A stretch of DNA of 64,000 nucleotides, taken from IMG/VR virus record IMGVR_UViG_3300025313_000944, positions 23,333 to 87,332 of that record; one strand, given 5' to 3'. How positions within the stretch are numbered: the first letter of the stretch is position 1; the number at the start of each line of letters is the position of its first letter. The notes beneath the pieces were generated by a model. The model did not search any database. It was not told the DNA's origin and was given only the letters and a program-made list of their open reading frames with translations. A program made the position numbers and the translations under genes. Of the stretch, positions 3,652 through 57,725 are shown piece after piece. The stretch is from a virus.

Positions 3652-3667
3652 AAAGGAGAAATAAAGA

Positions 3668-3790: not shown

Positions 3791-3803
3791 AAGGAGAAAT
3801 TTA

Positions 3804-4865: not shown

Positions 4866-5161
4866 TGAGAAGGTTTGTAATCCGCACAATCAAAAATGGG
4901 CAAGTAAAAATCTTTGGCAAGATATTTGAACCAGACAACAAATTTATGGAGTATGATGGTAGATTGGATGGCCTGCGCTATGCGTTTGGCTTGTATTATA
5001 CACCCATATTGTTGGATGAACAAACTGTTGGCTATGATATATTTTCTGTAAATCTTTGGGGACCAGAAGAAAACTACAAAAACCCAGTTACTCAGACGTG
5101 GGCAATTGATCCACAGATTGTGGAAGGTCATTATCCTTGGTTGATTTGGTGGAGAGTTTGA
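4865..5161 (+). CDS. Unknown protein, 98 aa
   Basis: Starts at TAATG overlap with the RNA ligase stop. Rich in Tyr and Trp with mixed beta/alpha content; the end HYPWLIWWRV is unusually aromatic. No family is recognised. Close coupling to the ligase suggests the same transcript but not necessarily the same pathway. Confidence 0.6.
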   Translation: MRRFVIRTIKNGQVKIFGKIFEPDNKFMEYDGRLDGLRYAFGLYYTPILLDEQTVGYDIFSVNLWGPEENYKNPVTQTWAIDPQIVEGHYPWLIWWRV

Positions 5162-6004: not shown

Positions 6005-6005
6005 A

Positions 6006-6251
6006 ATGGACACAGGAAATTTTTGGCAATCGAAATATGACAATCTGGTTTCTAGTTTGACGGAGACGCAAAAGGAAGCTTTATCACAATGGTTGGATGG
6101 TACACCTTTGGTCGTTGAAAAATTTCCACACACCCAAGGTTGTAGTGTGGTAATTTATGGTGGAGATGAAGAAATAATTTTTGAATTTGATACAAAAGGA
6201 AATTTTGTAAGCCTTGATGCCTTTGAGGTGGGTAGGTTCGGATGGAAATAA
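6006..6251 (+). CDS. Unknown protein, 81 aa
   Basis: Starts right after the primase stop with GAGTGGTGAA upstream. Helical N-terminal half and a C-terminal half that looks beta-rich (SVVIYGGDEEIIFEFD). No motif is recognised. It overlaps the next gene by 10 bases. Confidence 0.55.
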   Translation: MDTGNFWQSKYDNLVSSLTETQKEALSQWLDGTPLVVEKFPHTQGCSVVIYGGDEEIIFEFDTKGNFVSLDAFEVGRFGWK

Positions 6252-6451
6252 TTCTATATAGTCTATTGGGATTGAGTTATTTGGTAATTTTTTCTCTGTT
6301 GGTGACCTTTGTCAATTTGGTGAAAGGTGAAATCTATTGGTTGAGTTTATTAATAATATTATTCTGGCCCATTACTCTGCCGATTTTATTTCTGGTTTCA
6401 TTGTTTCAGGTATTGTTGAGGAGATATATGGATGGACATCTATTTGGCTAG
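6242..6451 (+). CDS. Two-helix membrane protein, 69 aa
   Basis: Two long hydrophobic segments (about residues 3-27 and 33-60) separated by KGEIYW predict a small inner-membrane protein with two helices and a basic end. No family is recognised. It overlaps the deoxyribosyltransferase-like gene by 20 bases. Confidence 0.6.
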   Translation: MEIILYSLLGLSYLVIFSLLVTFVNLVKGEIYWLSLLIILFWPITLPILFLVSLFQVLLRRYMDGHLFG

Positions 6452-6875
6452 ACCGATAAATGGTTACTCTTATTTGGAAGTTATGGATTGGTATAAAAAG
6501 ACACGAGGAGAGTTGGAATACTTTTATACGATCTTATCACCTATGAGCAACAAAGAAGCCTTGAGAACAGAAACCAAATTCAGAGCACATGGATACGATA
6601 ATAATCCAGTCTCAACCAATCACGCTATCATAGAACGAGATAGGTGGATGGTTTCCAGAGCAGATGTTGTCTTTATGGATTTGAGTAACACGGCTGAAGT
6701 ATCTATCGGATGTATGATGGAACTGGCTTGGGCGCACCAGCTTGGTAAACACACCATTGTAGTTATGTCTGAAGATAATATACATCAACATGCTTTCGTT
6801 TTAGAGGCGGCTGATATTGTATTTACAACTTATGAAGATGCTATCTGGTATTTACAAGAGTTAATAGGAGGTTAA
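6432..6875 (+). CDS. Nucleoside 2-deoxyribosyltransferase-like protein
   Basis: A 147-residue Rossmann-like protein. The N-terminal YLARPINGY is the substrate-loop pattern of this family. RDRWMVSRADVVFMDLS follows in the middle, then EVSIGCMMELAWA with a Glu in the usual catalytic position. Family members exchange or hydrolyse bases on deoxyribonucleosides. Phage relatives are tied to nucleotide salvage or modified-base supply. Neighbours MazG, a DUF1599-like protein and the reductase support a dNTP-pool role. The exact substrate cannot be told from sequence. Confidence 0.75.
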   Translation: MDIYLARPINGYSYLEVMDWYKKTRGELEYFYTILSPMSNKEALRTETKFRAHGYDNNPVSTNHAIIERDRWMVSRADVVFMDLSNTAEVSIGCMMELAWAHQLGKHTIVVMSEDNIHQHAFVLEAADIVFTTYEDAIWYLQELIGG

Positions 6876-6876
6876 A

Positions 6877-7080
6877 ATGTGGGAATATTTAGCACCAGAA
6901 TATCCAGCAATTGTAGATGTGGAAAATGAACCGAGTATTCGTGAATGTTTATCTAGCTTTGAAAGAGATAGAGTTACAAATTTGTTAGACGAAATTCGTT
7001 CATTTATTATGAATAGTAAACCACTTCATGCATTATTTGCTTTAGATGAATTAATGAAAATTCTGAAGTTGGAGGATTAA
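6877..7080 (+). CDS. Small protein sharing ends with the next gene, 67 aa
   Basis: Begins MWEYLAPE and ends with RVTNLLDEIRSFIMN and LFALDELMKIL. The downstream protein begins MWEDLATG and ends with KVVNLLNEVRSCL and KFALDELEQIF. This looks like a tandem relative that lacks the central DUF1599-like domain. Function unknown. An AGGAGG site precedes the ATG. Confidence 0.6.
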   Translation: MWEYLAPEYPAIVDVENEPSIRECLSSFERDRVTNLLDEIRSFIMNSKPLHALFALDELMKILKLED

Positions 7081-8773: not shown

Positions 8774-8972
8774 AGTACACTATAAGCTGAGTGAAGTTCT
8801 TAAGGGTGAACATTTCATTCAACGTGGATTAGTTCTTTACCGCAAGACTGAAGATGGTTACAAAGTGGTAGACACTGCTTTCGGGGAAGACCCCAACTTG
8901 GAAATTGAACAAGATGAAATAGTAGAAATAGTAAATCCACACGAGTGGTATTATACCACGGAGGAGAATTAG
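8760..8972 (+). CDS. Unknown acidic protein, 70 aa
   Basis: Overlaps the end of the methyltransferase gene by 14 bases. Likely beta-rich, with a strongly acidic C-terminal half (FGEDPNLEIEQDEIVEIV). No family is recognised. Confidence 0.55.
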   Translation: MKPFKVHYKLSEVLKGEHFIQRGLVLYRKTEDGYKVVDTAFGEDPNLEIEQDEIVEIVNPHEWYYTTEEN

Positions 8973-8973
8973 G

Positions 8974-9285
8974 ATGGCTACAGTAGAGGTTTTTAATTAT
9001 TTGAATGAAGTACCTGGTATACATTTGGCTTTACCAACGCGGTGTAAGTTGCCAGAATGTTATAGCATGGTTTATTTTCCATACCATGTTTGGCGGCTTA
9101 CTCTCAAGGAGAATAATTATTCGATGTTCTGGTTGTTTTGTTGTGAAGATCATAAAGCTAAATGGTTAGAGTTAATGTATAGTCAGTTCCACACTAGCAT
9201 GGGTATAATGCAGCATGCTATTATTAAAGAGTTGGAACGAGTAAAAAAGGCGGCTGAATTATTGGAGGTTGAAAGTAATGGTTGA
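8974..9285 (+). CDS. Unknown protein with Cys pairs, 103 aa
   Basis: Cysteines at CKLPEC and a FCCEDH segment could form a zinc site of the C-x4-C / C-x2-H kind. The C-terminus is a charged helix (KELERVKKAAELLEVE). No family is recognised. AGGAGA precedes the ATG. Confidence 0.55.
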   Translation: MATVEVFNYLNEVPGIHLALPTRCKLPECYSMVYFPYHVWRLTLKENNYSMFWLFCCEDHKAKWLELMYSQFHTSMGIMQHAIIKELERVKKAAELLEVESNG

Positions 9286-9424
9286 GTTGGCTTTATTTTT
9301 GGCTGGATTTTTTGTAGGGTCGTTCATCTTCGGTTGGTTATACGCCAACGAGCGTGATAAAGTTAAAGAATTGACTGTTTTACTTAACACCCGCTTGGGT
9401 GATATTGCTAGAAAGGTTAAATGA
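9278..9424 (+). CDS. Small single-helix membrane protein, 48 aa
   Basis: ATG 9278 follows GGAGGTTGAAAG. One N-terminal hydrophobic helix with glycines (LALFLAGFFVGSFIFGWLY), then a charged tail. It overlaps both neighbours by a few bases. Function unknown. Confidence 0.6.
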   Translation: MVELALFLAGFFVGSFIFGWLYANERDKVKELTVLLNTRLGDIARKVK

Positions 9425-9828
9425 TGATTAAAGAGTTGCTACTTACAGGGTTGGTATTAGCCAGTTGTGTGTCTTCTCAACCTCCAGTTAGCCCGGTACC
9501 AACACCGATTGTGTGTGATGTAGAGTGGGCTGATTTAGAGTATAGCATTCCGCTCTATCCGGCGGGAGAATACTTGCTTACCTTTGAAGCCAAATCCGTG
9601 GAACAATATGGTGAGCATGCTTTGGTAGTTGGTGTAGAAGTTAACACCGGTCAGGTAGTCGAGATGGGTGAGTATCAAGGTGAGTTGTTGATAGTTGGAA
9701 CCCTCTATACAGTACGAGCCATATTCATGTCCTCCCAAGATGGTAGACCTATCTTCGCTTTAATTGAGGTAGTTAAGGTGGAGAGTGTAGTTGAACCTAC
9801 GCCGGCTATTATAGGAGACCAGGTTTAA
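9421..9828 (+). CDS. Predicted lipoprotein, 135 aa
   Basis: A short signal sequence ends in the lipobox LVLASC (Cys about residue 16), followed by a Pro-rich linker and a ~100-residue mature domain that looks beta-rich. It would be membrane-anchored outside the cytoplasm. Phage lipoproteins often act in superinfection exclusion; nothing here proves that. It overlaps the start of the reductase gene by one base. Confidence 0.65.
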   Translation: MMIKELLLTGLVLASCVSSQPPVSPVPTPIVCDVEWADLEYSIPLYPAGEYLLTFEAKSVEQYGEHALVVGVEVNTGQVVEMGEYQGELLIVGTLYTVRAIFMSSQDGRPIFALIEVVKVESVVEPTPAIIGDQV

Positions 9829-17411: not shown

Positions 17412-17550
17412 GGTTACCTCCTAGATGGTGAACTTCTTTGAAATTAATAGATTCCACGTTTAAAAATTTCAACTTGTGCTTGCCGAGGAAAATGACAACC
17501 GACGTTGGTTTGTAATCTTTGTCGTAATGCACTATGATTCTAATCTGCAT
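17389..17550 (-). CDS. Small protein, 53 aa
   Basis: Opens at ATG 17550 inside the end of the upstream gene and reads MQIRIIVHYDKDYKPTSVV, then IFLGKHKLKFLNVESINF. It runs 23 bases into the next gene. The first 40 residues look like a beta-rich protein. The ribosome site is weak. Confidence 0.42.
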   Translation of the reverse strand: MQIRIIVHYDKDYKPTSVVIFLGKHKLKFLNVESINFKEVHHLGGNHGILRGN

Positions 17551-18305
17551 GTTTTATTCACCGGAAAGTCAATCTTATCCAATTCAGATTTGGGCATGTA
17601 CCACACCGCCGTGTGCTCCGGCCAAGTTCCGCTTGTTACGGACCATGGACCGCTATAAATATGTTTATCTGTAAAGTAAAGTTTATCTGTAAAGTAAAAT
17701 TTAAGATGCCTGTACCAATTGCTTAAACTTTGGTATTGAGTTCTTATTTTCAAACTGGATAAATCATAACCAAAAATTGAGCCGTCCAAGTCCTTGTGGT
17801 AATTTTCCCAAATACTGAGCAGTTCAAGTGAACATTCAATGTCAGGTTTGTAAACCGGGCACCAAACGTCCGGTGACACCTCGTAAGCTACGAAGTTCTG
17901 CACACCCCTCTGTCTGCTGGCTACCTCGTTGGGAACTCTATAGTTCTTGAAGATGTATATTGCCAGCTTGAGCAGGTCGAAGTTGTAACCACGACCTTCT
18001 CTCAGGTAACGTAGAATTGCGTGCAGCACCGGCCTAGGTGTGGTTGGATCAACGTCGGCCATTTCCTCAGCCGACTGTAAAACTATAGGTTGGTAGACTC
18101 CGTCTAGTATAGTGTTTGCTTTACCCACCCACTTGGCGAATTCGATTAGCTTTGCTGAATCCGGTGCCAATTTCCAGTAGCTAGAGACGGTGTGTATCCT
18201 GATTGAGTCTATTACCGAAACATTCTTGTAGAAGCACGTTGCAGTTTCGGCACAATGCGAGCTTACGTCTTGGCCGTTTACATGTACATAGTTGTAGCCA
18301 CTCAT
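17532..18305 (-). CDS. Unknown protein, 257 aa, next to the ATP-grasp gene
   Basis: No recognised domain. It overlaps the ATP-grasp stop by one base and may belong to the same pathway. Near the C-terminus the DNA carries an exact 18-base tandem duplication (about 17661-17696) giving FYFTDK-LYFTDK in the protein. The N-terminus (YVHVNGQDVSSHC) and many aromatics suggest an alpha/beta enzyme or a binding protein. Confidence 0.55.
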   Translation of the reverse strand: MSGYNYVHVNGQDVSSHCAETATCFYKNVSVIDSIRIHTVSSYWKLAPDSAKLIEFAKWVGKANTILDGVYQPIVLQSAEEMADVDPTTPRPVLHAILRYLREGRGYNFDLLKLAIYIFKNYRVPNEVASRQRGVQNFVAYEVSPDVWCPVYKPDIECSLELLSIWENYHKDLDGSIFGYDLSSLKIRTQYQSLSNWYRHLKFYFTDKLYFTDKHIYSGPWSVTSGTWPEHTAVWYMPKSELDKIDFPVNKTCRLES

Positions 18306-19168
18306 TAACCCTCTCCTATGAATAGGTAATCAGTATAAGATCGTGAATCAAGTAGCGGGTAATGCTCTCTCTCCCCGCTAAGTAACCAATCGAAATATTT
18401 AGCGTATTTACCCTGAGCATAATCTTCTAAAGTAGGTGAGGTGTTTACCTCACACACTACACATTGTGGATGATCCGGGCCATCCTCGGTTCTTGTCGGG
18501 TTAGCCATGATGTCTACCGCACCGTAATCCAAGCCGAGAACTTCTACAGCCTGAATTGCCAGCCTAATCTCGTCTATGGGCCAATTAGACCGCCTTAGCA
18601 CAACAAATTCAAAGTCATTGGTGGCGTGATTCCACACCGGTAGATTTACCTTATCTTCTTCACCCTCTCTCGGTCTCTTTTCGTTGACCAATAGAACTTT
18701 GCCATGAGCCACATGAACCCTGTATTCGTTTTGTTTCGGGTAGAACTCTGAGAAATACGAACCCACAAACGGTGGTGGCGTGTGGTGTAATTCGTCCTCA
18801 TCCTCGATCAGCCAAAAATTCTGACCACCTTGGTGAAACTGCGGCCTAAGAACTACCGGAAAGTTTAATGTCCAGTCTTGTATCGGCTTAGTCCAGACAA
18901 TGGTTTTGGGAACAGACACGCCAGCTTCTTGCAGCACCAGCCTTGCCCGGCCTTTGTCGCTGGCTAAGCCTATTCCCGACGATTGGTTGATTGTCTTTTT
19001 GGCGGGAATGTTAACACGACTTGCCCACCTAATCAACAATTCTACATTCTCAGGTGGGGCATCCCCTCTCCGCAAGCGCAACAATTGAATTTGGTCTTTG
19101 GTCTGCATCTTGTCGTAGATGCCTTGGACCGTCCTATGCCCGTTAGAAGCGCAAGTTAACAGGTTCAT
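18305..19168 (-). CDS. ATP-grasp ligase (RimK-like)
   Basis: A 287-residue protein with the ATP-grasp order. FPVVLRPQFHQGGQNFWLIE (103-122) is the small-subdomain ATP-binding loop, with Arg where Lys is more common. SEFYPKQNEYRVHV (140-153) follows. LDYGAVDI (213-220) and VVCEVNTSPT (237-246) carry the Mg-binding Asp, Glu and Asn. Such enzymes join a carboxylate, activated as acyl-phosphate, to an amine or peptide N-terminus. It lies with two amidoligases and three glutamine amidotransferases, so the product is probably a peptide-like or amidated compound. The N-terminal LLTCASNGH is shared with the next upstream gene. Confidence 0.85.
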   Translation of the reverse strand: MNLLTCASNGHRTVQGIYDKMQTKDQIQLLRLRRGDAPPENVELLIRWASRVNIPAKKTINQSSGIGLASDKGRARLVLQEAGVSVPKTIVWTKPIQDWTLNFPVVLRPQFHQGGQNFWLIEDEDELHHTPPPFVGSYFSEFYPKQNEYRVHVAHGKVLLVNEKRPREGEEDKVNLPVWNHATNDFEFVVLRRSNWPIDEIRLAIQAVEVLGLDYGAVDIMANPTRTEDGPDHPQCVVCEVNTSPTLEDYAQGKYAKYFDWLLSGEREHYPLLDSRSYTDYLFIGEG

Positions 19169-19401
19169 TCTAATACCTCCTCTACCTCTATGCTTATAAT
19201 CCTGTGGTTAGGTATCTCCAATAAGTTGGCAGCATGACCAGTCTCCAACAGAACATTTAGTTGGGTTCTCGTCAAATTACTATACGGCAGATTGGTTGTA
19301 AGTTCACCTATAGGCATTTTATAGGTGACCGTAACAATCCATTTACTTTTTTCCTCTCTGCCCGCGCTGTGACCATTATTAGCACAAGTTAGTATTTTCA
19401 C
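19165..19401 (-). CDS. Unknown protein sharing its N-terminus with the ATP-grasp enzyme, 78 aa
   Basis: GTG 19401 is chosen because AGAGGT lies upstream. The start KILTCANNGH closely matches LLTCASNGH at the start of the neighbouring ATP-grasp ligase. The rest (WIVTVTYKMPIGELTTNLPY, then an alpha/beta end) is unlike it. It overlaps both neighbours by 4 bases. Confidence 0.55.
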   Translation of the reverse strand: MKILTCANNGHSAGREEKSKWIVTVTYKMPIGELTTNLPYSNLTRTQLNVLLETGHAANLLEIPNHRIISIEVEEVLE

Positions 19402-19979
19402 TTCAAATACCTCTGTAGATAGGCTATGATTTGATGTAACTGACCCAGCACTTCTGGGTGCCATTGAACTGACACCACCGGTTTGTCTGGGTGCCAGATA
19501 GCTTCTATGATGCCGTCTTCAGCCACCGCTGCTACTTCCCAACTTGGCGGCACATCTTTGACGGCCTGGTGGTGCATAGAGTTGGCGCGAATGATTCTGG
19601 TGCCAAAAATTTCTTGCAGAATATTAGGCCCGGTTACGTGAACTGGGCCATGATGATGCCACCCAATCACCACACCATCAAGCTCTATATCTTGGTAGAG
19701 ACTACCACCAGCAGCGGCGGCGATGATTTGGTGCCCCCTACAGATGCCTACCATGGGGTGGTTCAATTCCAACAACCTTTTAGCTAGGTCGAATTCTCGT
19801 TTGTCGATGGCTGGCATCCACGGCCTAGAATGTGTATTCTCTTCCCCATACAGGCTGGGGTCGATATCCATACCCCCAGGGAACACCCAAGGTAAGTCGA
19901 GCGGTGGATTTTCTAGAAATTCTTGGTATTCTGCCTGTGTATAGTTTCTAGCAGGCCAGTCTGAATAATAAAAATTCAT
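19398..19979 (-). CDS. Class I glutamine amidotransferase / peptidase C26-like
   Basis: A 193-residue GATase domain. Oxyanion-loop region VFPGGMDIDP (about 32-41), nucleophile elbow GICRGHQ (Cys about 80), and QWHPE (His about 173, Glu about 175) complete the catalytic triad. NSMHHQAV is typical of the gamma-glutamyl hydrolase/PuuD branch. It would hydrolyse glutamine or a gamma-glutamyl amide, supplying ammonia to a ligase or trimming a gamma-glutamyl intermediate. Adjacent to the ATP-grasp gene. A second copy lies at 26005. Confidence 0.87.
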   Translation of the reverse strand: MNFYYSDWPARNYTQAEYQEFLENPPLDLPWVFPGGMDIDPSLYGEENTHSRPWMPAIDKREFDLAKRLLELNHPMVGICRGHQIIAAAAGGSLYQDIELDGVVIGWHHHGPVHVTGPNILQEIFGTRIIRANSMHHQAVKDVPPSWEVAAVAEDGIIEAIWHPDKPVVSVQWHPEVLGQLHQIIAYLQRYLK

Positions 19980-20722
19980 TATAAGTCCCTAGCCAATTCC
20001 AGCACCGCAGGTGGTGCTACTTCTTGCTCGCCGAAGAGAGACCACGCACCATAAGGCTCGTACCAGCCTCCATAGCTACAGCAAGCCTTAATTCTTTTGG
20101 CAAAAACTTGGTAACTGTTATTGATATTGCCCTCCAACCTGAGTTCAAAGACACCAAACCTGTTGCAGCGGTTACACTTACCCACCTGTGGTAGTAAGCT
20201 GAGAATTTCTTCTTTGTCTAAGAACAAGGCTGCCATGTAACCATCAAGGCCATCGTGATCTTCCACCATGGACCTGCGCCTGATGAAGAATGGGTGCAAT
20301 TCTGCCAAGGTGAATTCACCCAACAAAAAGCTCATAGCCCCGTCCCAAGTATCTTCACACCAATCTTCCTCTTGCTGTAATAAGCCCATATCTGCCAGTA
20401 CCTTGAGGAGCAGGTGGTCGAATTCCCACCACCCATCTTCGTAGCAGCCTCGGATGATACCAGCCGCAGCGTGTACCGCGGCCAGGTGGATGTCAGCAAG
20501 CTTGAGGGTTACTTTGTTTGACTCGAAAAAATCATCGAATTTTTTCTCGGCCTGCATGCCGAAGCTATTAACCAATGCTATGCGGTCATCTATTCCACCC
20601 CAGTTGGGTGAGTAGATGGTTAACAGCGCAGGTGAGTGGCTTCTTATTTGCCGTAGCATAGTTTCGCGGCAGGAGGTCGAGGACACTGCCGTACTGATGT
20701 AAAATTTGGTCGTCATTTCCAA
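19979..20722 (-). CDS. Unknown protein with C-terminal Cys cluster, 247 aa
   Basis: No family is recognised. The middle is helical and rich in Trp, Asp and Glu (CYEDGWWEFDHLLLKVL). Near the C-terminus CNRCNRFGVF with a later ACC suggests a zinc site. It overlaps the amidoligase by 10 bases and so probably serves the same pathway. Confidence 0.55.
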   Translation of the reverse strand: MEMTTKFYISTAVSSTSCRETMLRQIRSHSPALLTIYSPNWGGIDDRIALVNSFGMQAEKKFDDFFESNKVTLKLADIHLAAVHAAAGIIRGCYEDGWWEFDHLLLKVLADMGLLQQEEDWCEDTWDGAMSFLLGEFTLAELHPFFIRRRSMVEDHDGLDGYMAALFLDKEEILSLLPQVGKCNRCNRFGVFELRLEGNINNSYQVFAKRIKACCSYGGWYEPYGAWSLFGEQEVAPPAVLELARDL

Positions 20723-21618
20723 GCCTCCATAATATAGTTTTTCGGTGGTGCGGGTGCTTGTACACCGAAAAATTCAGAAACATTAGAAAATAATTGCTTG
20801 GCCGCTTCTGGATCACAGTTGTTTATGGTGGGTACCACTCGCCCAAAGTCTAATTGATTGATAAATTCAAACGGGTTATAACCATCTTCGATTAAAACGT
20901 GCACCATTTTAGCCAGACCCAGTAGACCGGCAGTTAATTCAGGATTGGTACTGGCCACACTACTGGGGGTGCGGTATTCTACACCCCAAGGCTGGATACG
21001 GAACTTTCCAGCCCGACCATACATCTGCCTACGTTGGCGGCCTAGGTCGGTGCTCTCGATCAGTACATCATATAACCCTAACGTACAGTCGAGTAGCATC
21101 ACCAAGCCTTGGACCTTGTTCATGTCCTTGTGAATTTCACTGATAGAGAAGTGAATGTGAAATCCGCCTGTCCGCCAAGTTATCTTGCGTGGGTCTTGCC
21201 AGGGACAGGTGGACAGGTCATACAAGCACTTGTCCGGCGAGCAGCCCAGTACCCTAAGTTCGGGGTGGTCTACCAAGTCTCTTGGGTCTAAGTAAACCAG
21301 CGGTGCTGCTGATAAGATATAACCGTTGTCATCAGCTAGTTTCCAAGCCTCACGCAAACCTTCGTAGAGGTGTTGCATCAGGCTATCCACCTCTCGCTCC
21401 GGTGTAACTGGGACCTCCAAAGCCAACCCATCCTCAGTCAGCTTGGAGTTTGCCAGCGTCACCTCGGCTGTCCAGTAGCCACCGTCGGCGATGTCTGAAC
21501 CTATTTCTTTGAAGATCGGCCTGTGTTGCTTGGAAGCAACTAGTACATCTTTAGCCGGCTTGGCCAAGCCTGATGGAGACTGGTAAAAATATTCACAATC
21601 TAAGCCTATCAAGTTCAT
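20713..21618 (-). CDS. Amidoligase, COOH-NH2 ligase family (phiEco32-like type)
   Basis: ATG 21618 is chosen for the GAGGATAAA site. The 301-residue protein fits the glutamine-synthetase-fold amidoligase pattern: LIGLDCEYFY (3-12), an acidic beta segment with AEVTL, LGCSPDKCLYD (124-134), GGFHIHFS (151-158), LLDCTLGLYD (175-184) and YGRAGKFRIQPWGVEYRT (200-217). These His, Glu and Arg residues would bind ATP and metal. The superfamily makes amide or isopeptide bonds. It lies in a run with ATP-grasp and GATase genes; a distant second amidoligase lies at 26739. Confidence 0.75.
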   Translation of the reverse strand: MNLIGLDCEYFYQSPSGLAKPAKDVLVASKQHRPIFKEIGSDIADGGYWTAEVTLANSKLTEDGLALEVPVTPEREVDSLMQHLYEGLREAWKLADDNGYILSAAPLVYLDPRDLVDHPELRVLGCSPDKCLYDLSTCPWQDPRKITWRTGGFHIHFSISEIHKDMNKVQGLVMLLDCTLGLYDVLIESTDLGRQRRQMYGRAGKFRIQPWGVEYRTPSSVASTNPELTAGLLGLAKMVHVLIEDGYNPFEFINQLDFGRVVPTINNCDPEAAKQLFSNVSEFFGVQAPAPPKNYIMEAWK

Positions 21619-21619
21619 T

Positions 21620-22255
21620 TTATCCTCTACCCGTATTGTATGTAGTTGTTGTGGGACCTGCCCACCTAATATATTGTCGGACACTCTCTCTTGCTTGCGC
21701 CATACCTTCTAAATTTTCTGAACTTGGTTGTTCTAGTTCATCGTCTGGTTCATCATCCTCTTCTAAATCTAGTGACGCTGGTTCTGGCTCCGTGACAGAG
21801 TGCCTCGGCTTGATAATAGTGATGACGGGGTTGTATTTCTCCTCTATTTTGCGCAAGTTCGTGGCTTGACATTCTCTGACCAAGGCGCACGTTTTGCAAG
21901 CAACTTTATGTACACAGTTGGGGCAAACTATAGCCGCGTATCTGGCACACCAACCCAGCTTGTCGGTGATGTTGCCACACCGGCAGACATCTATTAGATC
22001 GAAATCCACAAGTTGCCCGCCGGTGCCACAGCTTGTGCACGTTATAAATTCTATGTCGTGCACGGTTACGTTGTGCAATTTCTTCTTGGAAGAAAGGTTG
22101 AAGTTGGTAATCCTGTCCTCCGCCGACAAGCCTTGGGTTTCTAACAGAGCTTTGGTGGCTTGTCCCATCAGTTGTAGGCTGAGGCATTCCAGTAACAAGT
22201 CAGCCTTAACCGCACCTTTGATGTCAGTGCCACCACACGTTTTACACCTAAGCAT
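21620..22255 (-). CDS. Multi-zinc-finger protein, 211 aa
   Basis: Cys pairs at CKTCGG near the N-terminus, TCTSCGTG, CRCGN, CPNC and CKTC predict two or more zinc sites. A strongly acidic linker (LDLEEDDEPDDELEQ) precedes the C-terminus. It could be a scaffold or nucleic-acid-binding protein. It stops one base before the amidoligase start, so the two are co-transcribed. Confidence 0.6.
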   Translation of the reverse strand: MLRCKTCGGTDIKGAVKADLLLECLSLQLMGQATKALLETQGLSAEDRITNFNLSSKKKLHNVTVHDIEFITCTSCGTGGQLVDFDLIDVCRCGNITDKLGWCARYAAIVCPNCVHKVACKTCALVRECQATNLRKIEEKYNPVITIIKPRHSVTEPEPASLDLEEDDEPDDELEQPSSENLEGMAQARESVRQYIRWAGPTTTTYNTGRG

Positions 22256-22601
22256 TTAAATACCTCCTGACCGATGTATCGTTTATATATCTAACCTCTT
22301 TGGGGTCGAGCCTTAGTATCGGAGCCACCATATATTTGTCGATAAATAAATCACTCCTGATTAATACATTATTATCCTTGTCCAGCTCCATGACCACGAA
22401 CCTGCCCGCCCACACGTTTCTGGCGGTGGGCCACATGTAATTGGTAAAGATGATGGTTTCGACCTCGCCATCTTCAATCAGGCTTATATAATAGCCTAGT
22501 AGATTGCGGTTGACCTGCATACCACCTGCCCCACCTGTAACTACCATGGGTGACAGCTTGGTGCTTTGCCGAAACTCACTTAGCAATTGCTTTATATTCA
22601 T
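22248..22601 (-). CDS. Unknown protein, 117 aa
   Basis: Mixed alpha/beta. The middle (YYISLIEDGEVETIIFTNYMW) is strand-rich and Ile/Val-rich. No recognised motif. Overlaps both neighbours. Confidence 0.52.
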   Translation of the reverse strand: MNIKQLLSEFRQSTKLSPMVVTGGAGGMQVNRNLLGYYISLIEDGEVETIIFTNYMWPTARNVWAGRFVVMELDKDNNVLIRSDLFIDKYMVAPILRLDPKEVRYINDTSVRRYLNA

Positions 22602-22945
22602 TGGGGTTTATCCCTCGGCAGGAATACCAACTCCACTCTACTCTTTAATTTCTGGCTGGTTTCTACCGTCCATTTTCTGCTAATGCGTTCTGTTTCTTCT
22701 CCTTCCACGAATACCTTTATTCTGTTGGGGAAGAAAACCACACCGTTTATGTTGAATGGGCAAGACTTACCATAAAATGAGTGGGTTTTTCCTCTGAATT
22801 TGTAAACCTTACCTTGTGATAGTTGCTTGGCGGTATCGACAAACCGAAAATTTAACAAATCTTTTTCGGTTACAATCTCCACCTTGACTACTTGGTCATT
22901 AAAATTGCTTTCTAACATCTGGTAGTGGAGGTCCTTAATCTTCAA
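22598..22945 (-). CDS. Unknown protein, 115 aa
   Basis: Beta-rich, with VVKVEIVTEKD and GVVFFPNRIKVFVEGE. No family is recognised. Similar in size to the next gene and coupled to it by a 4-base overlap. Confidence 0.52.
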   Translation of the reverse strand: MKIKDLHYQMLESNFNDQVVKVEIVTEKDLLNFRFVDTAKQLSQGKVYKFRGKTHSFYGKSCPFNINGVVFFPNRIKVFVEGEETERISRKWTVETSQKLKSRVELVFLPRDKPQ

Positions 22946-23627
22946 CCTGCACCTCCGCAGCCTTGAACATATTTTCCAACATGGTCTTGTACGCCCTAGC
23001 TGTTACACCATAGAAGGCCGATTTTAACTTGTTTTGAGTCTCGGCGGTGTCGATAGTTTGTAGGTGGCCACTTAACACTAGCGAGAACAGCCCATAGGTT
23101 ATTAGACCCAACATATCATCTGCCTTTTTTAGACTCAAAGTAGTCACACCTAAATCACGAACGGCGATGTAAGCCAAGGCTACCAAAGCCATTATGCCGG
23201 TGATCTTCCACTTCTGGTCTGGTTCATCTTCAAACCAGATTGTGCAATCGTTCTTATCGAAGTCGGTTTTGAGCAGCTCTACTACCAGTTTATCTATCGA
23301 ATCCACCGTGTGCTGCACACTCTTGTTGAAGACCGTACCCGAATCGAACACCACCCGCACGATCTCCCCGTGCCGGTTGAAGGTTACGATACTTTGGTTG
23401 TCGTCCCAAGCAGGTACCAACAACTTGTCCTTTATCTTGGGAAAGCTTTGTGTTCCCCGCAAGGTTCTATCGTCTTGGGTGGCTATAAATGCTGGCATAC
23501 CGTCGATGTCTACCACAAGTCCGCGCTCAAAAGCCAAACCTGTGACAACGTGATCGACGAAAGCTTTGGTATCCAGCAAATTTCTATCGTAAGAACTCTC
23601 AGCTAAAAACTTGTCAATTGTCCACAT
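22935..23627 (-). CDS. Unknown protein, 230 aa
   Basis: An N-terminal half with strands and Asp-rich turns, and a C-terminal half with hydrophobic helices (GIMALVALAYIAV). No family is recognised. It overlaps the RuvB-like ATPase by 14 bases, suggesting a partner role. Confidence 0.52.
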   Translation of the reverse strand: MWTIDKFLAESSYDRNLLDTKAFVDHVVTGLAFERGLVVDIDGMPAFIATQDDRTLRGTQSFPKIKDKLLVPAWDDNQSIVTFNRHGEIVRVVFDSGTVFNKSVQHTVDSIDKLVVELLKTDFDKNDCTIWFEDEPDQKWKITGIMALVALAYIAVRDLGVTTLSLKKADDMLGLITYGLFSLVLSGHLQTIDTAETQNKLKSAFYGVTARAYKTMLENMFKAAEVQVED

Positions 23628-24354
23628 ATACTTCCCTACCTCTAGGTGTAATTCTGATCAGTTGTTTTTGTAAGAGAAAAGGTTCTATCTCTTCCTCCAC
23701 GGTTTCTCTCGGCAATCCCAAGCTGGCTGAAATAACTCTGGCTGAAACTGGTCCTCTCTTACTAACAAATTCTAAATAACTCCTATCATTGCCGGTGAAG
23801 CCAGCAGCTTGGTAGCCTAGAGTTTCCAGCATTTGGTCATACTCGGTTTGTGTTGCCTGAGAATATCTGTAGTATTGCTCCAAACTTATTACCTCTTTGG
23901 CCAACGTGACCGCCACTCTAGGTGAACCTCTACACCTAATTGATATCCTGTTAGCAGCCAAGTCACTGATCGGAACGTGAACCTTGGCTATTTGGGCCAA
24001 CTGTATTTCAGTGTATGGTTCCAGCCACAGTTCTATCATTCTGGACCTGAGCGGCTCGCTGACCGGTGCGCCGGTAGTAGTACAACCTATAAGGGTACTA
24101 TAGGCATACCACGCCTCCTCATTGGGGAGCCGGTGTATCTCGTCGATAATTACCGGCTCCCCATCTTCAGGAGGGTATAATCTACCGGTGCATAGGTTGT
24201 AGTAGTATGCCTCTCTTGCAACTTGGTTGGCATACCACTTGGCTAGTAAGGTTTTACCGCTGCCGGGTGGACCACGAAACAGAGCGTTTTGGTGATTCTT
24301 GGTGGCTACCCACACTCTGATTCTAGTTTGTATGATTTCCTGTCCAATTATCAT
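23614..24354 (-). CDS. RuvB-like AAA+ ATPase
   Basis: ATG 24354 overlaps the preceding stop (TAATG). The 246-residue protein has Walker A GPPGSGKT (28-35), Walker B VIIDEIHRL (68-76), an arginine-finger region PLRSRMIELWL, and a C-terminal winged helix close to RuvB (SASLGLPRETVEEEIEP, then LIRITPRGREVY). RuvB drives Holliday-junction branch migration. This one is shorter than the ~330-residue bacterial protein and has no RuvA beside it. Together with the nuclease at 493 it could process replication or recombination intermediates. Confidence 0.82.
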   Translation of the reverse strand: MIIGQEIIQTRIRVWVATKNHQNALFRGPPGSGKTLLAKWYANQVAREAYYYNLCTGRLYPPEDGEPVIIDEIHRLPNEEAWYAYSTLIGCTTTGAPVSEPLRSRMIELWLEPYTEIQLAQIAKVHVPISDLAANRISIRCRGSPRVAVTLAKEVISLEQYYRYSQATQTEYDQMLETLGYQAAGFTGNDRSYLEFVSKRGPVSARVISASLGLPRETVEEEIEPFLLQKQLIRITPRGREVYVDN

Positions 24355-25628
24355 TATGTACCAGCTATCAAGGCTAGGTCTTGTAAATCTATGACCTCGT
24401 TGTGGAAATAAGGAACGTCGAAATCTCGGCCTAATACCTCCTTTGCCAGTACATACAAACTCTCTACCGTTATCAACCCACTCATGTGGGAAGCGGTAGA
24501 GAAAGCCAACCACAACTGTTCTTTCTCCTCATTCGGAGCCAGCTCTGGTTTGGTTTCCCAAGCCCACTTCAATAGGTCGGTTAGCTCCCCAATTTCTATA
24601 GCCTCATAATTAGCCACACTTAACAGATCGTGGCCGGTCAGTTCTTTCAACGTCAGGCGGTGGGTTTCCTCACTCACCTTGGGGGACAGCCCAAACAACT
24701 TGACCAACGCCTCTACTCTGGCAATAGCCTCTTCCACATCTATTTCACCAGCAATGGTTTGGTAATCTTCAACATCATAGTTGGCTTGCCAACCATAATT
24801 ATACTTGGTGGTTGTGTTGGTATATTTTTTGGGTGGGTCATTTACGTTCTTCACTTCCTTGAATTCAGCAATGGTTTGCAACTCACCTTTATTTAAAACG
24901 TGAAGGCTATATTCTGGCAGAGCTTTGGGTTTCTCTACTACCTCTAGCAGAGGCAGGTTGAACGCAGCCAAGCCAAAGTTGACTGCCTCGGCTAAATCAC
25001 TCAAATTGGCCTCGGTTGTGTTTAAGAGCAAGCCATAATTGGTGTTCATAGTATACAAGGTACGATTACCGCGTACCACGAACACCTCCGGTCGGCCAAG
25101 TTGCCGGATGAGTAAGGAATATTCAGCCTCACCCACCTGTTTTAACACCTCTACTAATTTATCTTCGACCTTAGCCCCACCCAATTGGTTGGCCAAGTAG
25201 GCCGTGAAAACATGGCTGTCGGTGGCATCCCTTAGATTAACTTCTTTGGCCAGACGGTCATGCTCCTTGAAAATACCGTTGTGCATGACCAACACCCCAC
25301 CCACTACGAATGGGTGGGCGTGCTCCGTTGGATGGTTTTGGCCGTACTGCACCCGCCACTCTGTCGAGGCGTTCCTGACGTGACCAATCAAGGTATCCTT
25401 GTAGCCATCTACTTTTTGGAACCAGTTGTGCCACGGTTCCAAAAATACTAACTCCTTGGCGGGCTTGCCAATCTTGAGGAATGGTAATCTATCTACCGTG
25501 TTGGCTGAGATGCCTATTCCGTTGGTGTTGCCCAGCCTAGCCGACAACAAAGTTAATACTCCGAACACATATAAGTCATTGACCTCAACTATAGGGTCAC
25601 GTTTTGACATGGCAATTAATCTGCACAT
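24354..25628 (-). CDS. Class II glutamine amidotransferase (Ntn hydrolase)
   Basis: A 424-residue protein starting MCRLIAM, so Cys2 would be the N-terminal nucleophile after Met removal. GHVRNASTEW (Arg and Asn of the glutamine site), PFVVGGVLVMHNGIFKEHDRL and TDSHVF complete the class II signature. It would release ammonia from glutamine. About 200 C-terminal residues are not the usual synthase partner domain and are unassigned, with a helical end. It lies with the amidoligases and ATP-grasp ligase. Confidence 0.85.
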   Translation of the reverse strand: MCRLIAMSKRDPIVEVNDLYVFGVLTLLSARLGNTNGIGISANTVDRLPFLKIGKPAKELVFLEPWHNWFQKVDGYKDTLIGHVRNASTEWRVQYGQNHPTEHAHPFVVGGVLVMHNGIFKEHDRLAKEVNLRDATDSHVFTAYLANQLGGAKVEDKLVEVLKQVGEAEYSLLIRQLGRPEVFVVRGNRTLYTMNTNYGLLLNTTEANLSDLAEAVNFGLAAFNLPLLEVVEKPKALPEYSLHVLNKGELQTIAEFKEVKNVNDPPKKYTNTTTKYNYGWQANYDVEDYQTIAGEIDVEEAIARVEALVKLFGLSPKVSEETHRLTLKELTGHDLLSVANYEAIEIGELTDLLKWAWETKPELAPNEEKEQLWLAFSTASHMSGLITVESLYVLAKEVLGRDFDVPYFHNEVIDLQDLALIAGT

Positions 25629-25993
25629 AATTTCTCCTGCAAAACCCTGCGGTGGATTTCAGACCGCCAAGGTCTTTCCTGTGTTCTTTCTTCTATTTCC
25701 ACTTTATAATGCCACTCCATATTGTCCGGTATTTTGGTCCACGCCATTGGCTGAACTTTGTGGTCGGGAAAGTCAATGCCTAGTTCTTTGCACAAATTTT
25801 TGACATAAGAAGCACCCATGTCCACCCAACCACAGCCGTTCCAAAATGCAGGAATGGTGTGGGTCTCACCTCTAGCGGAATTGTGCAACCCTCTGTATCT
25901 ATCCTCTGCTGTATACTCGGTGGTAATAAGAGCTTCCCACCCCGCATCTTCATCGAAGTATAGCTGACCATCAATCAATTCCAAGTTTACCAT
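25616..25993 (-). CDS. Unknown protein, 125 aa
   Basis: ATG 25993 is chosen for the AAGGAAAA site. A beta-rich, acidic N-terminus (LELIDGQLYFDEDAGW) is followed by ALITTEYTAEDRYRGL and a charged helix. No family is recognised. Overlaps the amidotransferase start by 13 bases. Confidence 0.52.
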   Translation of the reverse strand: MVNLELIDGQLYFDEDAGWEALITTEYTAEDRYRGLHNSARGETHTIPAFWNGCGWVDMGASYVKNLCKELGIDFPDHKVQPMAWTKIPDNMEWHYKVEIEERTQERPWRSEIHRRVLQEKLCAD

Positions 25994-26004
25994 TTTTATT
26001 TTCC

Positions 26005-26628
26005 TTAGCTTAAAATATGGGCGAGTAGGTATTCGGATATACCATCGTAAATTTCTTCTGGGTGCCATTGTACACCAGCTATTGGCAAATCCTCATGAAG
26101 CACGGCCTCTACTATATCGTCCCCCGAATAGCTAATTGGTCTTAACTCTACCCCCAATTCGCCCACAGCTTGGTGGTGCATGCTATTCACCTTTATGCTT
26201 TTCCTTGCTCCTAGTGCAAAACTTACCTCATGTACAAGTTGGGTTCTTGGGTCTGAGTGTGGGTGACTTAGTAAATTCTGTATCAGAGTGCCACCAAAGT
26301 GCACATTTAGGGTTTGCAGTCCACGACAAATGCCGAAGATGGGAAGCTTGGCTTTGACCAAGCTCGGTAAGATGTTGATATCGAAATACTCCAAGTGTTG
26401 GTCGCTATCATACAAGATGAAATTAGGCGCTTGCCGATAGCGCATTGTATTCAGGTCACTACCACCCGGTAGGACCACCAACCCAAAAAATCTGACTATA
26501 TCTTCGGCGGTGGCAGTTGGTGGTATGGGGTAAACTGGACCCCATTGGCTCAAATACTCCATGTATGGGGCACCTACACCGAAAAAGCTGTCTTGGTAAG
26601 AAACCCGACCTGCTATGCCAATATTCAT
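26005..26628 (-). CDS. Second class I glutamine amidotransferase / peptidase C26-like
   Basis: A 207-residue paralogue of the enzyme at 19398. VVLPGGSD (51-58), GICRGLQ (Cys about 101), NSMHHQAV and QWHPEE (His about 189, Glu about 191) give the full catalytic set. Two copies in one operon suggest two different amide substrates, or one supplying ammonia and one trimming. A small membrane peptide gene lies just upstream. Confidence 0.86.
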   Translation of the reverse strand: MNIGIAGRVSYQDSFFGVGAPYMEYLSQWGPVYPIPPTATAEDIVRFFGLVVLPGGSDLNTMRYRQAPNFILYDSDQHLEYFDINILPSLVKAKLPIFGICRGLQTLNVHFGGTLIQNLLSHPHSDPRTQLVHEVSFALGARKSIKVNSMHHQAVGELGVELRPISYSGDDIVEAVLHEDLPIAGVQWHPEEIYDGISEYLLAHILS

Positions 26629-26629
26629 T

Positions 26630-26716
26630 TTAGCACCCCCTCAGAACCAAGAGTATTATTACAAGTACCACCAAATATAGAAACCATAGGTAGAGTTGTC
26701 CTTCGTTTAATCTCAT
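26630..26716 (-). CDS. Tiny membrane peptide, 28 aa
   Basis: ATG 26716 follows AAAAGGAGAAAA. The product is a single hydrophobic helix (LYLWFLYLVVLVIILLVL). It ends one base before the amidotransferase start. Good ribosome site, hence a likely real gene; role unknown. Confidence 0.6.
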   Translation of the reverse strand: MRLNEGQLYLWFLYLVVLVIILLVLRGC

Positions 26717-26738
26717 TTTATTTTCTCCTTTTATTCTT

Positions 26739-27821
26739 TTAATCGTAGTAACCATTGTCCCAAATGGACCGAATAAATTCTCTGTCAACCACCGGCGGTA
26801 CCAAGCGACTGTCCATAGCTTCCAGATTCACGTAGGCGCTCTGGTTCCTACATAGATGATTTATCTGTGGGCCTTGAACACCTAGTTGCCAGTCCGATTT
26901 AGACCACAACCGGTACAGCTTATCCAAGGTGTAGTCCTCCATAGGAACCACAGCCAGTAGGTCTTCCAACGTATAATCTTCGTAGGTTTTCCCCAAAGGA
27001 AAGCGAGGGATATCCAATTCCACCGGTTTGGCGTAGGCGGCTCTAACCACCGCCAGACACAGGTGTACCCAAGCTTCCACGTTTTTGAAATCCAGTGTTT
27101 GATTAAAACACCGGAATTCGATAGTGCCTTGCCTTAGAAGTGGCACCGGGTTTAGCCAGTAATAGCGTGGCGGTATCCACTTGCTTCTCTGCTGGTCGGC
27201 TCTACCCCAAGCCTGCAATACCTCTTCGGTAGAATTAGCATACATGATTATTCTGTCAACATCGAAGCATTGCCGCCAATGCTCATTACCATCTTTAACA
27301 TATTGTGGACCAGCACCGGTCAATGGCCGACAGTACATGTAATCGTTATGACTGATACCACGATGGTACAACAACTCAGCCACAGAAAGTCTGAACATAG
27401 GCGCTTCTATCCTAGTAGCAATTTCCAGGATGTTCTTAATGACCTCGACCGGTGGTAATGTTCCCATGTAAACGTGGACATGTACTGAGGTCAAAGTCGA
27501 GAGGTACTCTCCGTACCTCTTCAGTAGCTTGGTTAAAGCTTGAATATCCTCTCTGAACTTGGCTGAGGTTAGTTTACTGTAGACAGGTGAAACCAGTTCC
27601 CCGCCGACTTGGCGGGATGGCAGGATGTCAAGCAACGAATCTCCACGGTCTACCTCTAGGCGGATACCATCTACCTCTAGTCCCCGCTTGGTGCAGGAGC
27701 CATCTCGCGTCAGAGACCAACCCCTCAGATCAGATTTCTTGGGGGGCCAATGACCGTCGATGTCGAAGCTGTTGAATTCGTACTCTACGCCGAAGCTACT
27801 ACCTATTTCGTAGATTGCCAT
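26739..27821 (-). CDS. Amidoligase of the Amidoligase_2 type
   Basis: ATG 27821 is chosen for the AAGGAGC site; the frame is open further up without a good start. The 360-residue protein begins with FGVEYEFNSF (10-19), the Glu-rich strand of this superfamily. WSLTRDGSC, GGELVSPV (73-80), SVHVHVYM (112-119) and GTIEFRCFNQTLD (232-244) follow in the family's order. These residues form the ATP and metal site for carboxylate-amine ligation. It is clearly distinct in sequence from the first amidoligase at 20713. Confidence 0.78.
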   Translation of the reverse strand: MAIYEIGSSFGVEYEFNSFDIDGHWPPKKSDLRGWSLTRDGSCTKRGLEVDGIRLEVDRGDSLLDILPSRQVGGELVSPVYSKLTSAKFREDIQALTKLLKRYGEYLSTLTSVHVHVYMGTLPPVEVIKNILEIATRIEAPMFRLSVAELLYHRGISHNDYMYCRPLTGAGPQYVKDGNEHWRQCFDVDRIIMYANSTEEVLQAWGRADQQRSKWIPPRYYWLNPVPLLRQGTIEFRCFNQTLDFKNVEAWVHLCLAVVRAAYAKPVELDIPRFPLGKTYEDYTLEDLLAVVPMEDYTLDKLYRLWSKSDWQLGVQGPQINHLCRNQSAYVNLEAMDSRLVPPVVDREFIRSIWDNGYYD

Positions 27822-27831
27822 GTTTTGCTCC

Positions 27832-28293
27832 TTAACTATGTACCAAATACAACCATACTTCACTGTTTATTCCAGCATGGTACAGTTTGGATTTAGCTTG
27901 ACGATGCTTGGCTGCCAACTCCATAATGTCATACCCACCGAATCGAGGCCGTTGAACCCGCACTGTTGTGCCAGAATAGTCATCGGATAATTCGGCCAAA
28001 GTTACACCAAGTATTCCATTAAGGACACCACCCTTGGGGGCATAATAACTGACATGCAGATCGAGGCCGTGTTCTTCCTTGAACCAATCTTGATACCAGT
28101 CGAGGTCGTATTCCAATACGCCAAATTTGAGAAGTTCAACCTCTTTGGTCTCTAAAGCTGGCTCGCCTTGGCTGTCGTGCAAGTAATAAATATTTGCACC
28201 CAATACAATGCTTTTCTTAATCTTGATCTGTTTGATAGTAGGTTTAAGGTAATCTTCAGCCCGCACGCCTACCATCAAAGTTACCTCGCTCAT
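27832..28293 (-). CDS. Unknown protein, 153 aa
   Basis: ATG 28293 follows AAGGAGATTAAA. Alpha/beta content with no recognised motif (LDWYQDWFKEEHGLD, then VRVQRPRFGGYDIMELA). Just upstream of the amidoligase in transcription order. Confidence 0.55.
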   Translation of the reverse strand: MSEVTLMVGVRAEDYLKPTIKQIKIKKSIVLGANIYYLHDSQGEPALETKEVELLKFGVLEYDLDWYQDWFKEEHGLDLHVSYYAPKGGVLNGILGVTLAELSDDYSGTTVRVQRPRFGGYDIMELAAKHRQAKSKLYHAGINSEVWLYLVHS

Positions 28294-28370
28294 TTTAATC
28301 TCCTTGAAATACTGGTCCAAAAGCGGACCGTGAAATAGATTAACCCGATTAACAAGGCTATCTCAATCAT
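28290..28370 (-). CDS. Tiny membrane peptide, 26 aa
   Basis: ATG 28370 lies 8 bases inside the end of the methyltransferase gene. The product is a single hydrophobic helix (IALLIGLIYFTVRFW) and its stop overlaps the next ATG by 4 bases (ATGA). It fits the operon's packing but is short. Confidence 0.48.
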   Translation of the reverse strand: MIEIALLIGLIYFTVRFWTSISRRLK

Positions 28371-29136
28371 TGGGGTACTTTCTGCGTGGCTTGACCAAGA
28401 TAGCGTAAGATTTCCTATTTTCCATTGGAAGCTTCAACCAATCCCTAAATGCAGACCAAGCATACATTGGTAGGGTTTCTACTATTACAGCACCAACTTT
28501 AGCTGTTCGGTAAATATGCTTATATAGGTTCAGCATATTCATCTCACGGCTTATGGGTTGGTACATATAAATTATGTCATAAGGCTTGAAATCATGCTCG
28601 AAAGCATCTCCCAAAATGAAGGTTGGCCTCGGTTTGTTGGGGTAGAGATCCATGAACTTCTTGCTTAGGAACTTACCGGCGTAATAACTATCGGGTGTGT
28701 ATTCTATCCCGTAGGCCGTCAAGTTGAAGTAATCGCTGGCCAAGAAAGCTTTGTCCCCGATACCAGAACCCACATCTATGAATTTTTTAGCTCTAGGCTT
28801 TGTGAGCAAGGCAGCACTGATGGCAACTACGAAATCGGCAGGCGGCAGTGGTATGTAGGCGTAGTCACCACGCTTATAGGCTAATTCGTCTTTGATATCC
28901 GAGCATGACAACCTATCTGGTTCTAAACCAAATATCAACTTCAAGGCCGCGGTCAGAGACCTGTTCAGTGCTGAGTAATAATATTCTGCCTTACCCTCCT
29001 TGGCCCAGTCCAATAAGAACCAATAGTCTGCTATGCTCACATTTTTGAAGTCAACATTGGTCGTGCACTTGGCACACATGTAAAACTTGCTAGACAAGGC
29101 CCTCATCTCACCACATTCTCTGCATTTTCCAGCCAT
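28363..29136 (-). CDS. Zinc-finger-fused class I SAM methyltransferase
   Basis: An N-terminal zinc site (Cys 5, 8, 21, 24; CRECGE and CAKC) precedes a Rossmann methyltransferase. KFIDVGSGIGDKAFLAS is the SAM-binding motif I, YGIEYTPDSYYAG gives the acidic ribose-binding residue, and ILGDAFEHDFKPYDIIYM covers motifs II-III. No NPPY or DPPY motif, so it is not a typical DNA N-methyltransferase. The target may be a protein or small molecule. It is close in the operon to the amidoligase. Confidence 0.78.
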   Translation of the reverse strand: MAGKCRECGEMRALSSKFYMCAKCTTNVDFKNVSIADYWFLLDWAKEGKAEYYYSALNRSLTAALKLIFGLEPDRLSCSDIKDELAYKRGDYAYIPLPPADFVVAISAALLTKPRAKKFIDVGSGIGDKAFLASDYFNLTAYGIEYTPDSYYAGKFLSKKFMDLYPNKPRPTFILGDAFEHDFKPYDIIYMYQPISREMNMLNLYKHIYRTAKVGAVIVETLPMYAWSAFRDWLKLPMENRKSYAILVKPRRKYPND

Positions 29137-29199
29137 GATAACCCTCCTGAGGGGCTAATCAAAATTTGTAATTTCTTACTTGACATAACCTCTGGTGGT

Positions 29200-29487
29200 T
29201 TATTCTTCCTCGAAACCAGCCTCGCAGGTTTCACAGAGGTTGTTGTCGTTTAGTGGTTCGAGTTCACCACATTCCTCACATAGCTGTATTTCCCAACTCT
29301 CCACCGTATCCTTACCCACCACCAGAAGATTATCATAGTATTCAGGGTCTTGGAATATTACCAATCCTTCCGGTGTAATGCACGCAGGTAATCTATCTGA
29401 CTTTATATTTGCGCGGATAGCTTGGTCGGTGCTCTCCACCGGCCTAATTTTTTGGGAATGAATAACCTCATGGTGCCATTTAAACAT
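29200..29487 (-). CDS. Zinc-ribbon protein, 95 aa
   Basis: ATG 29487 follows AAGGAGAAA. The C-terminus holds CEECGELEPLNDNNLCETCE, a compact four-Cys ribbon. The same layout is found, frameshifted, at 31192-31484. Both proteins start with a His-His-containing segment (FKWHHEV here, FKHHYDV there). Confidence 0.62.
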   Translation of the reverse strand: MFKWHHEVIHSQKIRPVESTDQAIRANIKSDRLPACITPEGLVIFQDPEYYDNLLVVGKDTVESWEIQLCEECGELEPLNDNNLCETCEAGFEEE

Positions 29488-57721: not shown

Positions 57722-57725
57722 TCCT

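Follow-up and report, generated by a model that had tools for sequence, protein, structure and literature searches.

A set of genes named the 'Peptidoglycan Modification Cassette' has been described in RIO-1-like phages (PMC5498523). It comprises a gamma-glutamyl amidoligase, a second amidoligase, an ATP-grasp protein, a gamma-glutamyl cyclotransferase and a glutamine amidotransferase, and was reported as conserved, beyond RIO-1/HP1, in phiEco32, 7-11, PA11, tf, MR299-2, LUZ24, PaP3 and CW02. The same genes are listed for Pseudomonas phage UFV-P2 (PMC3890496). PMC5498523, which cites Iyer et al. and Hardies et al. (2013), proposes that the cassette alters the cell surface against superinfection, and PMC10580990 and PMC11318856 credit the same idea to Iyer et al. 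(2009). Here a cluster of such enzymes was analysed in a 64,000-nucleotide stretch (the window) of the IMG/VR virus record IMGVR_UViG_3300025313_000944, corresponding to bases 23333-87332 of the 87,332-base record. Coordinates below are window positions.

A new pathway is not supported for the window set. It is very probably a divergent, rearranged member of the known phage amidoligase cassette of phiEco32, LUZ24 and RIO-1; this rating covers membership and the general ligase and hydrolase chemistry and not the target. The six core enzymes all lie on the minus strand between 18305 and 27821 (Table 1): a RimK-like ATP-grasp ligase, a PF14395-type COOH-NH2 ligase, an Amidoligase_2 (PF12224) enzyme, two class I glutamine amidotransferases (GATases; copies a and b) and one class II GATase. 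All six had been named at these positions in the original prediction, which was made from the letters and open reading frames (ORFs). Profile searches with Pfam recovered five of them (RimK, COOH-NH2_lig, Amidoligase_2 and Peptidase_C26 twice). The class II GATase gave no Pfam match at E≤0.001 and was identified by PHROG 14519, a family profile and its catalytic residues. The set matched PHROG families 2599, 7218, 3815, 14519 and 2443. Family-invariant catalytic residues are present in all six proteins, and from these sequences the set probably works as enzymes, as had been predicted for an amide- or isopeptide-forming gene set.

Recurrence across phages

Two groups of 80 IMG/VR loci, one recruited via the COOH-NH2 ligase and the other via the ATP-grasp ligase, were surveyed together with annotated stretches of named phages and scanned with profiles built from seed proteins. 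Because loci were recruited by one family, the counts describe linkage given the recruiting family and not abundance. Some loci share a contig or lie on near-identical contigs; for layout, 83 dereplicated loci with the full ligase and GATase core were used.

All five families occurred together in 94 of the 160 IMG/VR loci (64/80 recruited via the COOH-NH2 ligase and 30/80 via the ATP-grasp ligase), which is the neighbourhood recurrence that the original prediction had proposed as its own test. Loci recruited via the COOH-NH2 ligase contained Amidoligase_2 in 76 cases, class II GATase in 75, ATP-grasp in 73 and class I GATase in 70. The set was also found in the named phages UFV-P2, ECBP2, Zobellviridae HSd1 and T5S1, and Leptolyngbya phage Lbo-JY46. 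The cassette is widespread, and its named carriers include a cyanophage as well as phages that infect Pseudomonas, E. coli, Salmonella and Vibrio. Genes were co-oriented in 83/83 dereplicated complete cassettes (span 4.0-9.6 kb, median 4.9 kb), and the window core likewise forms a same-strand block.

The window had been thought to hold a fuller set than known ones, with three ammonia-handling enzymes, and so, possibly, a new pathway, in which the extra genes and a methyltransferase would provide further steps. Among surveyed loci, more than one class I GATase per cluster is a rarity seen in the window and Lbo-JY46 only, and cassette genes overlap tightly with unassigned neighbours. Against this, the usual make-up of the cassette is these same five enzyme families, and the extra genes, one of them RuvB-like, have no homologue in any other surveyed cassette. 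Duplication of the class I GATase is not unique to the window because Lbo-JY46 also has two. A new pathway is accordingly considered highly improbable. That the duplicate class I GATase in the lineage of the window and in Lbo-JY46 adds a step leading to a different gamma-glutamyl product, possibly with lineage-specific neighbour genes as partners, is judged quite unlikely.

Of the 83 complete cassettes, 79 had a class I GATase, a gamma-glutamyl cyclotransferase or both (class I GATase only, 47; cyclotransferase only, 10; both, 22; neither, 4). No cyclotransferase was found anywhere in the record that contains the window, where this part of the cassette consists of the two class I GATases. The two families were negatively associated across the 83 cassettes (Fisher p=0.013), which suggests that they overlap in function in partly interchangeable gamma-glutamyl-cleaving roles; replacement of one by the other was not significant by independent pairs, in which ancestry is allowed for. 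Since nearly every complete cassette has one or the other, a gamma-glutamyl amide is pointed to as intermediate or product, which gives a testable handle.

Clustering of neighbours showed that only DNA primase/helicase, DNA polymerase and an unannotated protein of ~200 residues recur at a frequency like that of the cassette enzymes. The survey thus reveals a further uncharacterised family, located between the COOH-NH2 ligase and Amidoligase_2, which its profile finds in 103 surveyed loci (for example L007:8692-9267 and L008:10774-11433). It is common but not universal, and so not a defining feature. In named phages an initial reading of this inter-amidoligase 'hypothetical' protein as a class I GATase was overturned by alignment, which placed it in a separate family.

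Ligases

Each enzyme was aligned with 22-32 phage and IMG/VR relatives, and the window residues were checked at each position that 85% or more of these relatives share. Amidoligases and GATases kept their catalytic residues in these alignments; their loss had been named beforehand as an argument against a pathway.

In the ATP-grasp ligase every invariant residue is present, including K72, R108, E148, K164, D219, E240 and N242, and the E-x-N motif is kept. It matches PHROG 2599 'ribosomal protein S6 glutaminyl transferase' (E=7.5e-25), and its nearest solved structures are RimK and cyanophycin synthase. MptN, LysX and CofF were weaker NCBIfam matches. The start of this gene resembles that of the adjoining small protein (19165-19401, minus strand) in 27/39 bases (NLLTCASNGH and KILTCANNGH, respectively), possibly as the result of a partial duplication, to judge from the letters.

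Both amidoligases have the invariant residues of their families and retain the Glu, HxH and ExR motifs. The likely start of the COOH-NH2 ligase is the ATG at 21618 rather than the ORF end at 21684, and that of Amidoligase_2 the ATG at 27821 rather than the ORF end at 27863; in each case an apparent overlap is thereby removed. Numbered from 27863, Amidoligase_2 retains E27/E29, D54, E89, H128/H130, Y234 and E249-F-R251. An AlphaFold2 model of the COOH-NH2 ligase (pLDDT 81) gave glutamine synthetase, gamma-glutamylmethylamide synthetase (GmaS) and YbdK as top PDB matches; a model of Amidoligase_2 (pLDDT 66) gave YbdK, bifunctional glutathione synthetase, GmaS and GshA. TM-scores to the best PDB folds were low for both models (0.3-0.44), a likeness at superfamily level. 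Because their best solved matches are glutamine synthetase, GmaS, YbdK and glutathione synthetase, both look in these models like gamma-glutamyl-type ligases of one glutamine-synthetase/GCS superfamily fold. The earlier description of the two amidoligases as unrelated is thus not borne out by the models, although profile-profile comparison gave just a short HxH match (probability 19%), which does not join them in common descent. Placement of the window ligase by tree gave a long branch, the position of which was not trusted.

Glutamine amidotransferases

The class I GATases carry intact triads (Cys80, His174 and Glu176 in copy a; Cys101, His189 and Glu191 in copy b). In a tree, copy b formed a clade (5 rows, support 99/96) with the sole class I GATases of surveyed loci L086, L104 and L106 and with Lbo-JY46 8827-9459, and is on this basis the enzyme ordinarily present in the cassette. 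The additional one, copy a, occupies a deep branch of uncertain place. Solved relatives of the class I enzymes include PuuD, the gamma-Glu-GABA hydrolase; EgtC was also among the solved relatives of cassette enzymes. The best NCBIfam match of copy b was to gamma-glutamyl-CDP-amidate hydrolase of the Cj1417 type (E=1.9e-17), at 64 bits well short of the curated NF045546 cut-off of 250.

The class II GATase was found with a phage class II GATase profile at E~1e-31, the window protein being itself a seed of that profile; the PHROG 14519 match (E=1e-5) is independent of it. It retains Cys2, His83/Arg85, His105-Pro-Phe and Asn117-Gly118, and in a separate alignment Asp137-Ser138. Models of GlmS (glutamine-fructose-6-phosphate transaminase) matched its N-terminal ~190 residues only, and no SIS (sugar isomerase) domain was seen in any of 23 relatives; GlmS was rejected because the isomerase domains are absent. 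Two class II GATases (636-658 and 424 residues) lie on either side of the amidoligase in the L084 and L086 cassettes.

Proposed chemistry and acceptor

With ATP, glutamine-synthetase-like and ATP-grasp ligases turn a carboxylate into an acyl phosphate, and the acyl group is then transferred to an amine. Glutamine or gamma-glutamyl amides are the substrates that class II GATase domains hydrolyse; enzymes of the C26 type act by hydrolysis on gamma-glutamyl amides. From the chemistry of these families and the PuuD relative, the likeliest pathway would be successive formation of gamma-glutamyl or isopeptide-type bonds followed by trimming. The ATP-grasp, COOH-NH2 ligase and Amidoligase_2 enzymes would each convert a carboxylate through an acyl phosphate to an amide with an amine. 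The class II GATase would release ammonia from glutamine or cleave a gamma-glutamyl amide, and the two C26-type class I GATases would hydrolyse gamma-glutamyl amides, so that the product is trimmed or recycled. Where a gamma-glutamyl cyclotransferase is present, it may do the class I GATases' job.

Candidate acceptors were rated with the cell wall about level with a small metabolite, then protein, and DNA least. The host cell wall, modified to block superinfection, is the published guess and ranks here as a tentative candidate. A small gamma-glutamyl metabolite, such as a glutathione-like peptide or a gamma-glutamyl amine, that is made and broken by the cassette is a possibility of similar rank. 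The two amidoligase models are nearest to small-molecule gamma-glutamyl ligases (GmaS, YbdK, GshA-type), the class I GATases resemble PuuD, the subthreshold match of copy b is to an enzyme of this kind, and many cassettes have a gamma-glutamyl cyclotransferase; but fold likeness at the superfamily level does not fix the substrate, and no such phage metabolite was found in the literature searched.

Attachment of glutamate or amines to a protein of the host or the virion, as in polyglutamylation by RimK, would agree with RimK as the nearest relative of the ATP-grasp ligase, and the hydrolases could then act as erasers. RimK-like enzymes also use small molecules, as MptN, LysX and CofF illustrate, and no protein target gene accompanies the cassette in the neighbour clustering, which leaves this option rather unlikely. 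Modification of phage DNA bases is suggested by the frequent location of the cassette near primase/helicase and DNA polymerase genes. That closeness would reflect where early/middle genes of these phages generally lie, and no hydroxymethyl-pyrimidine or 7-deazaguanine pathway genes were recognised among recurring neighbours in a cluster list judged by eye; a DNA acceptor is thus very unlikely.

Gene layout and neighbouring genes

The record is an unclassified phage genome fragment of ~87 kb. No near-identical phage DNA was found, and single-protein scans of IMG/VR gave no close relatives. One terminase family was searched without a match, and structural proteins gave weak matches only. The cassette lies in a densely packed leftward gene run on the minus strand from ~31.2 to 14.3 kb, in which neighbours overlap or nearly abut. 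A strong promoter-like site (31780-31752, minus strand) lies near the upstream end of the run and a terminator-like hairpin of 13 pairs at 14297-14268 (minus strand), each pattern occurring in numbers barely above chance. From these signals, the cassette genes would be part of one longer leftward transcription unit, extending roughly from 31780 to 14297-14268. The annotation given earlier for the cluster was accurate, with corrections: the leftward unit appears longer, and it includes a RuvB-like gene that had not been listed.

The RuvB-like gene has an ATG that overlaps the stop codon of the class II GATase gene, and its product is probably outside the pathway. The 17532-18305 gene shares 1 base at its start with the stop codon of the ATP-grasp gene, and no homologue of its product was found across the surveyed loci. 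The proteins at 19979-20722 and 21620-22255 were present in the window genome only among these loci, and the three small proteins at 22248-23627 had no homologue in other cassettes surveyed. The unassigned proteins had been put forward as partners in the pathway; none has a homologue in the other 166 surveyed loci. For the protein at 28363-29136 the earlier assignment as a zinc-finger methyltransferase agrees with a weak methyltransferase match and N-terminal Cys pairs, and a search for its homologue in surveyed cassettes found none. Pathway membership of the extra genes and the methyltransferase is thus unsupported. The methyltransferase-like protein also matches mad2 of the MADS defence system, though weakly (PADLOC, E=1.2e-9).

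Table 1. Positions and profile matches of the cassette enzymes and of genes beside them.
Feature	Position	Strand	Evidence
RimK-like ATP-grasp ligase, 287 residues, core member	18305..19168	-	Pfam RimK E=1.6e-5
Class I GATase / Peptidase_C26, copy a, 193 residues, additional copy	19398..19979	-	Pfam E=1.4e-38
COOH-NH2 ligase (phiEco32-like type 2), 301 residues	20713..21618	-	PF14395 E=9e-14; PHROG 3815
Class II (Ntn) GATase domain with C-terminal part without assigned family, 424 residues	24354..25628	-	PHROG 14519 E=1e-5
Class I GATase / Peptidase_C26, copy b, 207 residues, ordinary cassette copy	26005..26628	-	Pfam E=1.6e-31
Amidoligase_2 enzyme, 360 residues	26739..27821	-	PF12224 E=4e-13; PHROG 2443
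RuvB-like AAA+ ATPase	23614..24354	-	Pfam RuvB_C E=3e-14, RuvB_N E=2.5e-6; NCBIfam RuvB E=8e-33, below cut-off
Zn-ribbon/methyltransferase, putative	28363..29136	-	Methyltransf_31 E=3e-4, below gathering cut-off; N-terminal Cys pairs
Protein without recognised family	17532..18305	-	No Pfam, PHROG or NCBIfam match
Protein without recognised family, between COOH-NH2 ligase and GATase copy a	19979..20722	-	No Pfam, PHROG or NCBIfam match
Cys-rich protein without recognised family	21620..22255	-	No Pfam or PHROG match
Small protein without recognised family	22248..22601	-	No significant Pfam match
Small protein without recognised family	22598..22945	-	No significant Pfam match
Small protein without recognised family	22935..23627	-	No significant Pfam match

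Two further features of the window were recorded. A block at 55840-62407 (minus strand) with glycosyltransferases (GT1/GT4, GT2), FkbM, Methyltransf_24 and C-methyltransferases beside tail-module genes looks like a phage glycan or capsular-sugar module, and an RNA ligase with a PHA02142 OB-fold domain is encoded at 3723-4865 (plus strand).

Comparison with known systems

Several observations weigh against assignment of the window set to the known cassette. Its core span of 9.6 kb is the widest of the 83 complete cassettes, and the core genes are separated by the RuvB-like gene and genes without recognised family. Protein identity to relatives is about 20-40%. Within the set, divergence is greatest for the class II GATase, which has no C-terminal CxxC...CxxC, a feature that most of its relatives carry. 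The ~200-residue inter-amidoligase protein had no match anywhere in the window's record, and the independent-pairs result for class I GATase and cyclotransferase also counts here. In the open-licence literature searched, neither a report of the product since the 2009 prediction nor an experiment on the product or target of any such cassette was found.

The peptidoglycan modification cassette and the window set are both same-strand clusters in the early/middle region, with a gamma-glutamyl-type COOH-NH2 ligase, a second amidoligase, an ATP-grasp enzyme and a glutamine amidotransferase. In the window two class I GATases replace the gamma-glutamyl cyclotransferase, the protein that normally separates the amidoligases is missing, and the genes are spread twice as wide. 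The phages of that cassette are podoviruses, whereas the window phage carries a long tail-tape-measure gene. UFV-P2 and LUZ24-like phages (PMC3890496) share COOH-NH2_lig, Amidoligase_2, class II GATase and ATP-grasp with the window and have a gamma-glutamyl cyclotransferase in place of the class I GATases. The Zobellviridae phage T5S1-k141_444551 (PQ867842) has class I and class II GATases, COOH-NH2 ligase, Amidoligase_2 and ATP-grasp and, like the window, no annotated cyclotransferase; it differs in its single class I GATase, compact layout and intervening small protein.

The cyanophage Lbo-JY46 (PP438436; cluster 20819-29306) shares the COOH-NH2 ligase, ATP-grasp, class II GATase and Amidoligase_2 enzymes. 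In its surveyed locus (L003), genes for nicotinate phosphoribosyltransferase and PRPP synthetase lie at 2772-6981, immediately upstream of the amidoligase cassette. Like the window it has two clear class I GATases, with a weak third match, and one of them is 38% identical to the window enzyme at 26005-26628, the phages being compared over the cassette only. Unlike the window, it has a gamma-glutamyl cyclotransferase, a longer ATP-grasp enzyme and class II GATase, and a contiguous gene order.

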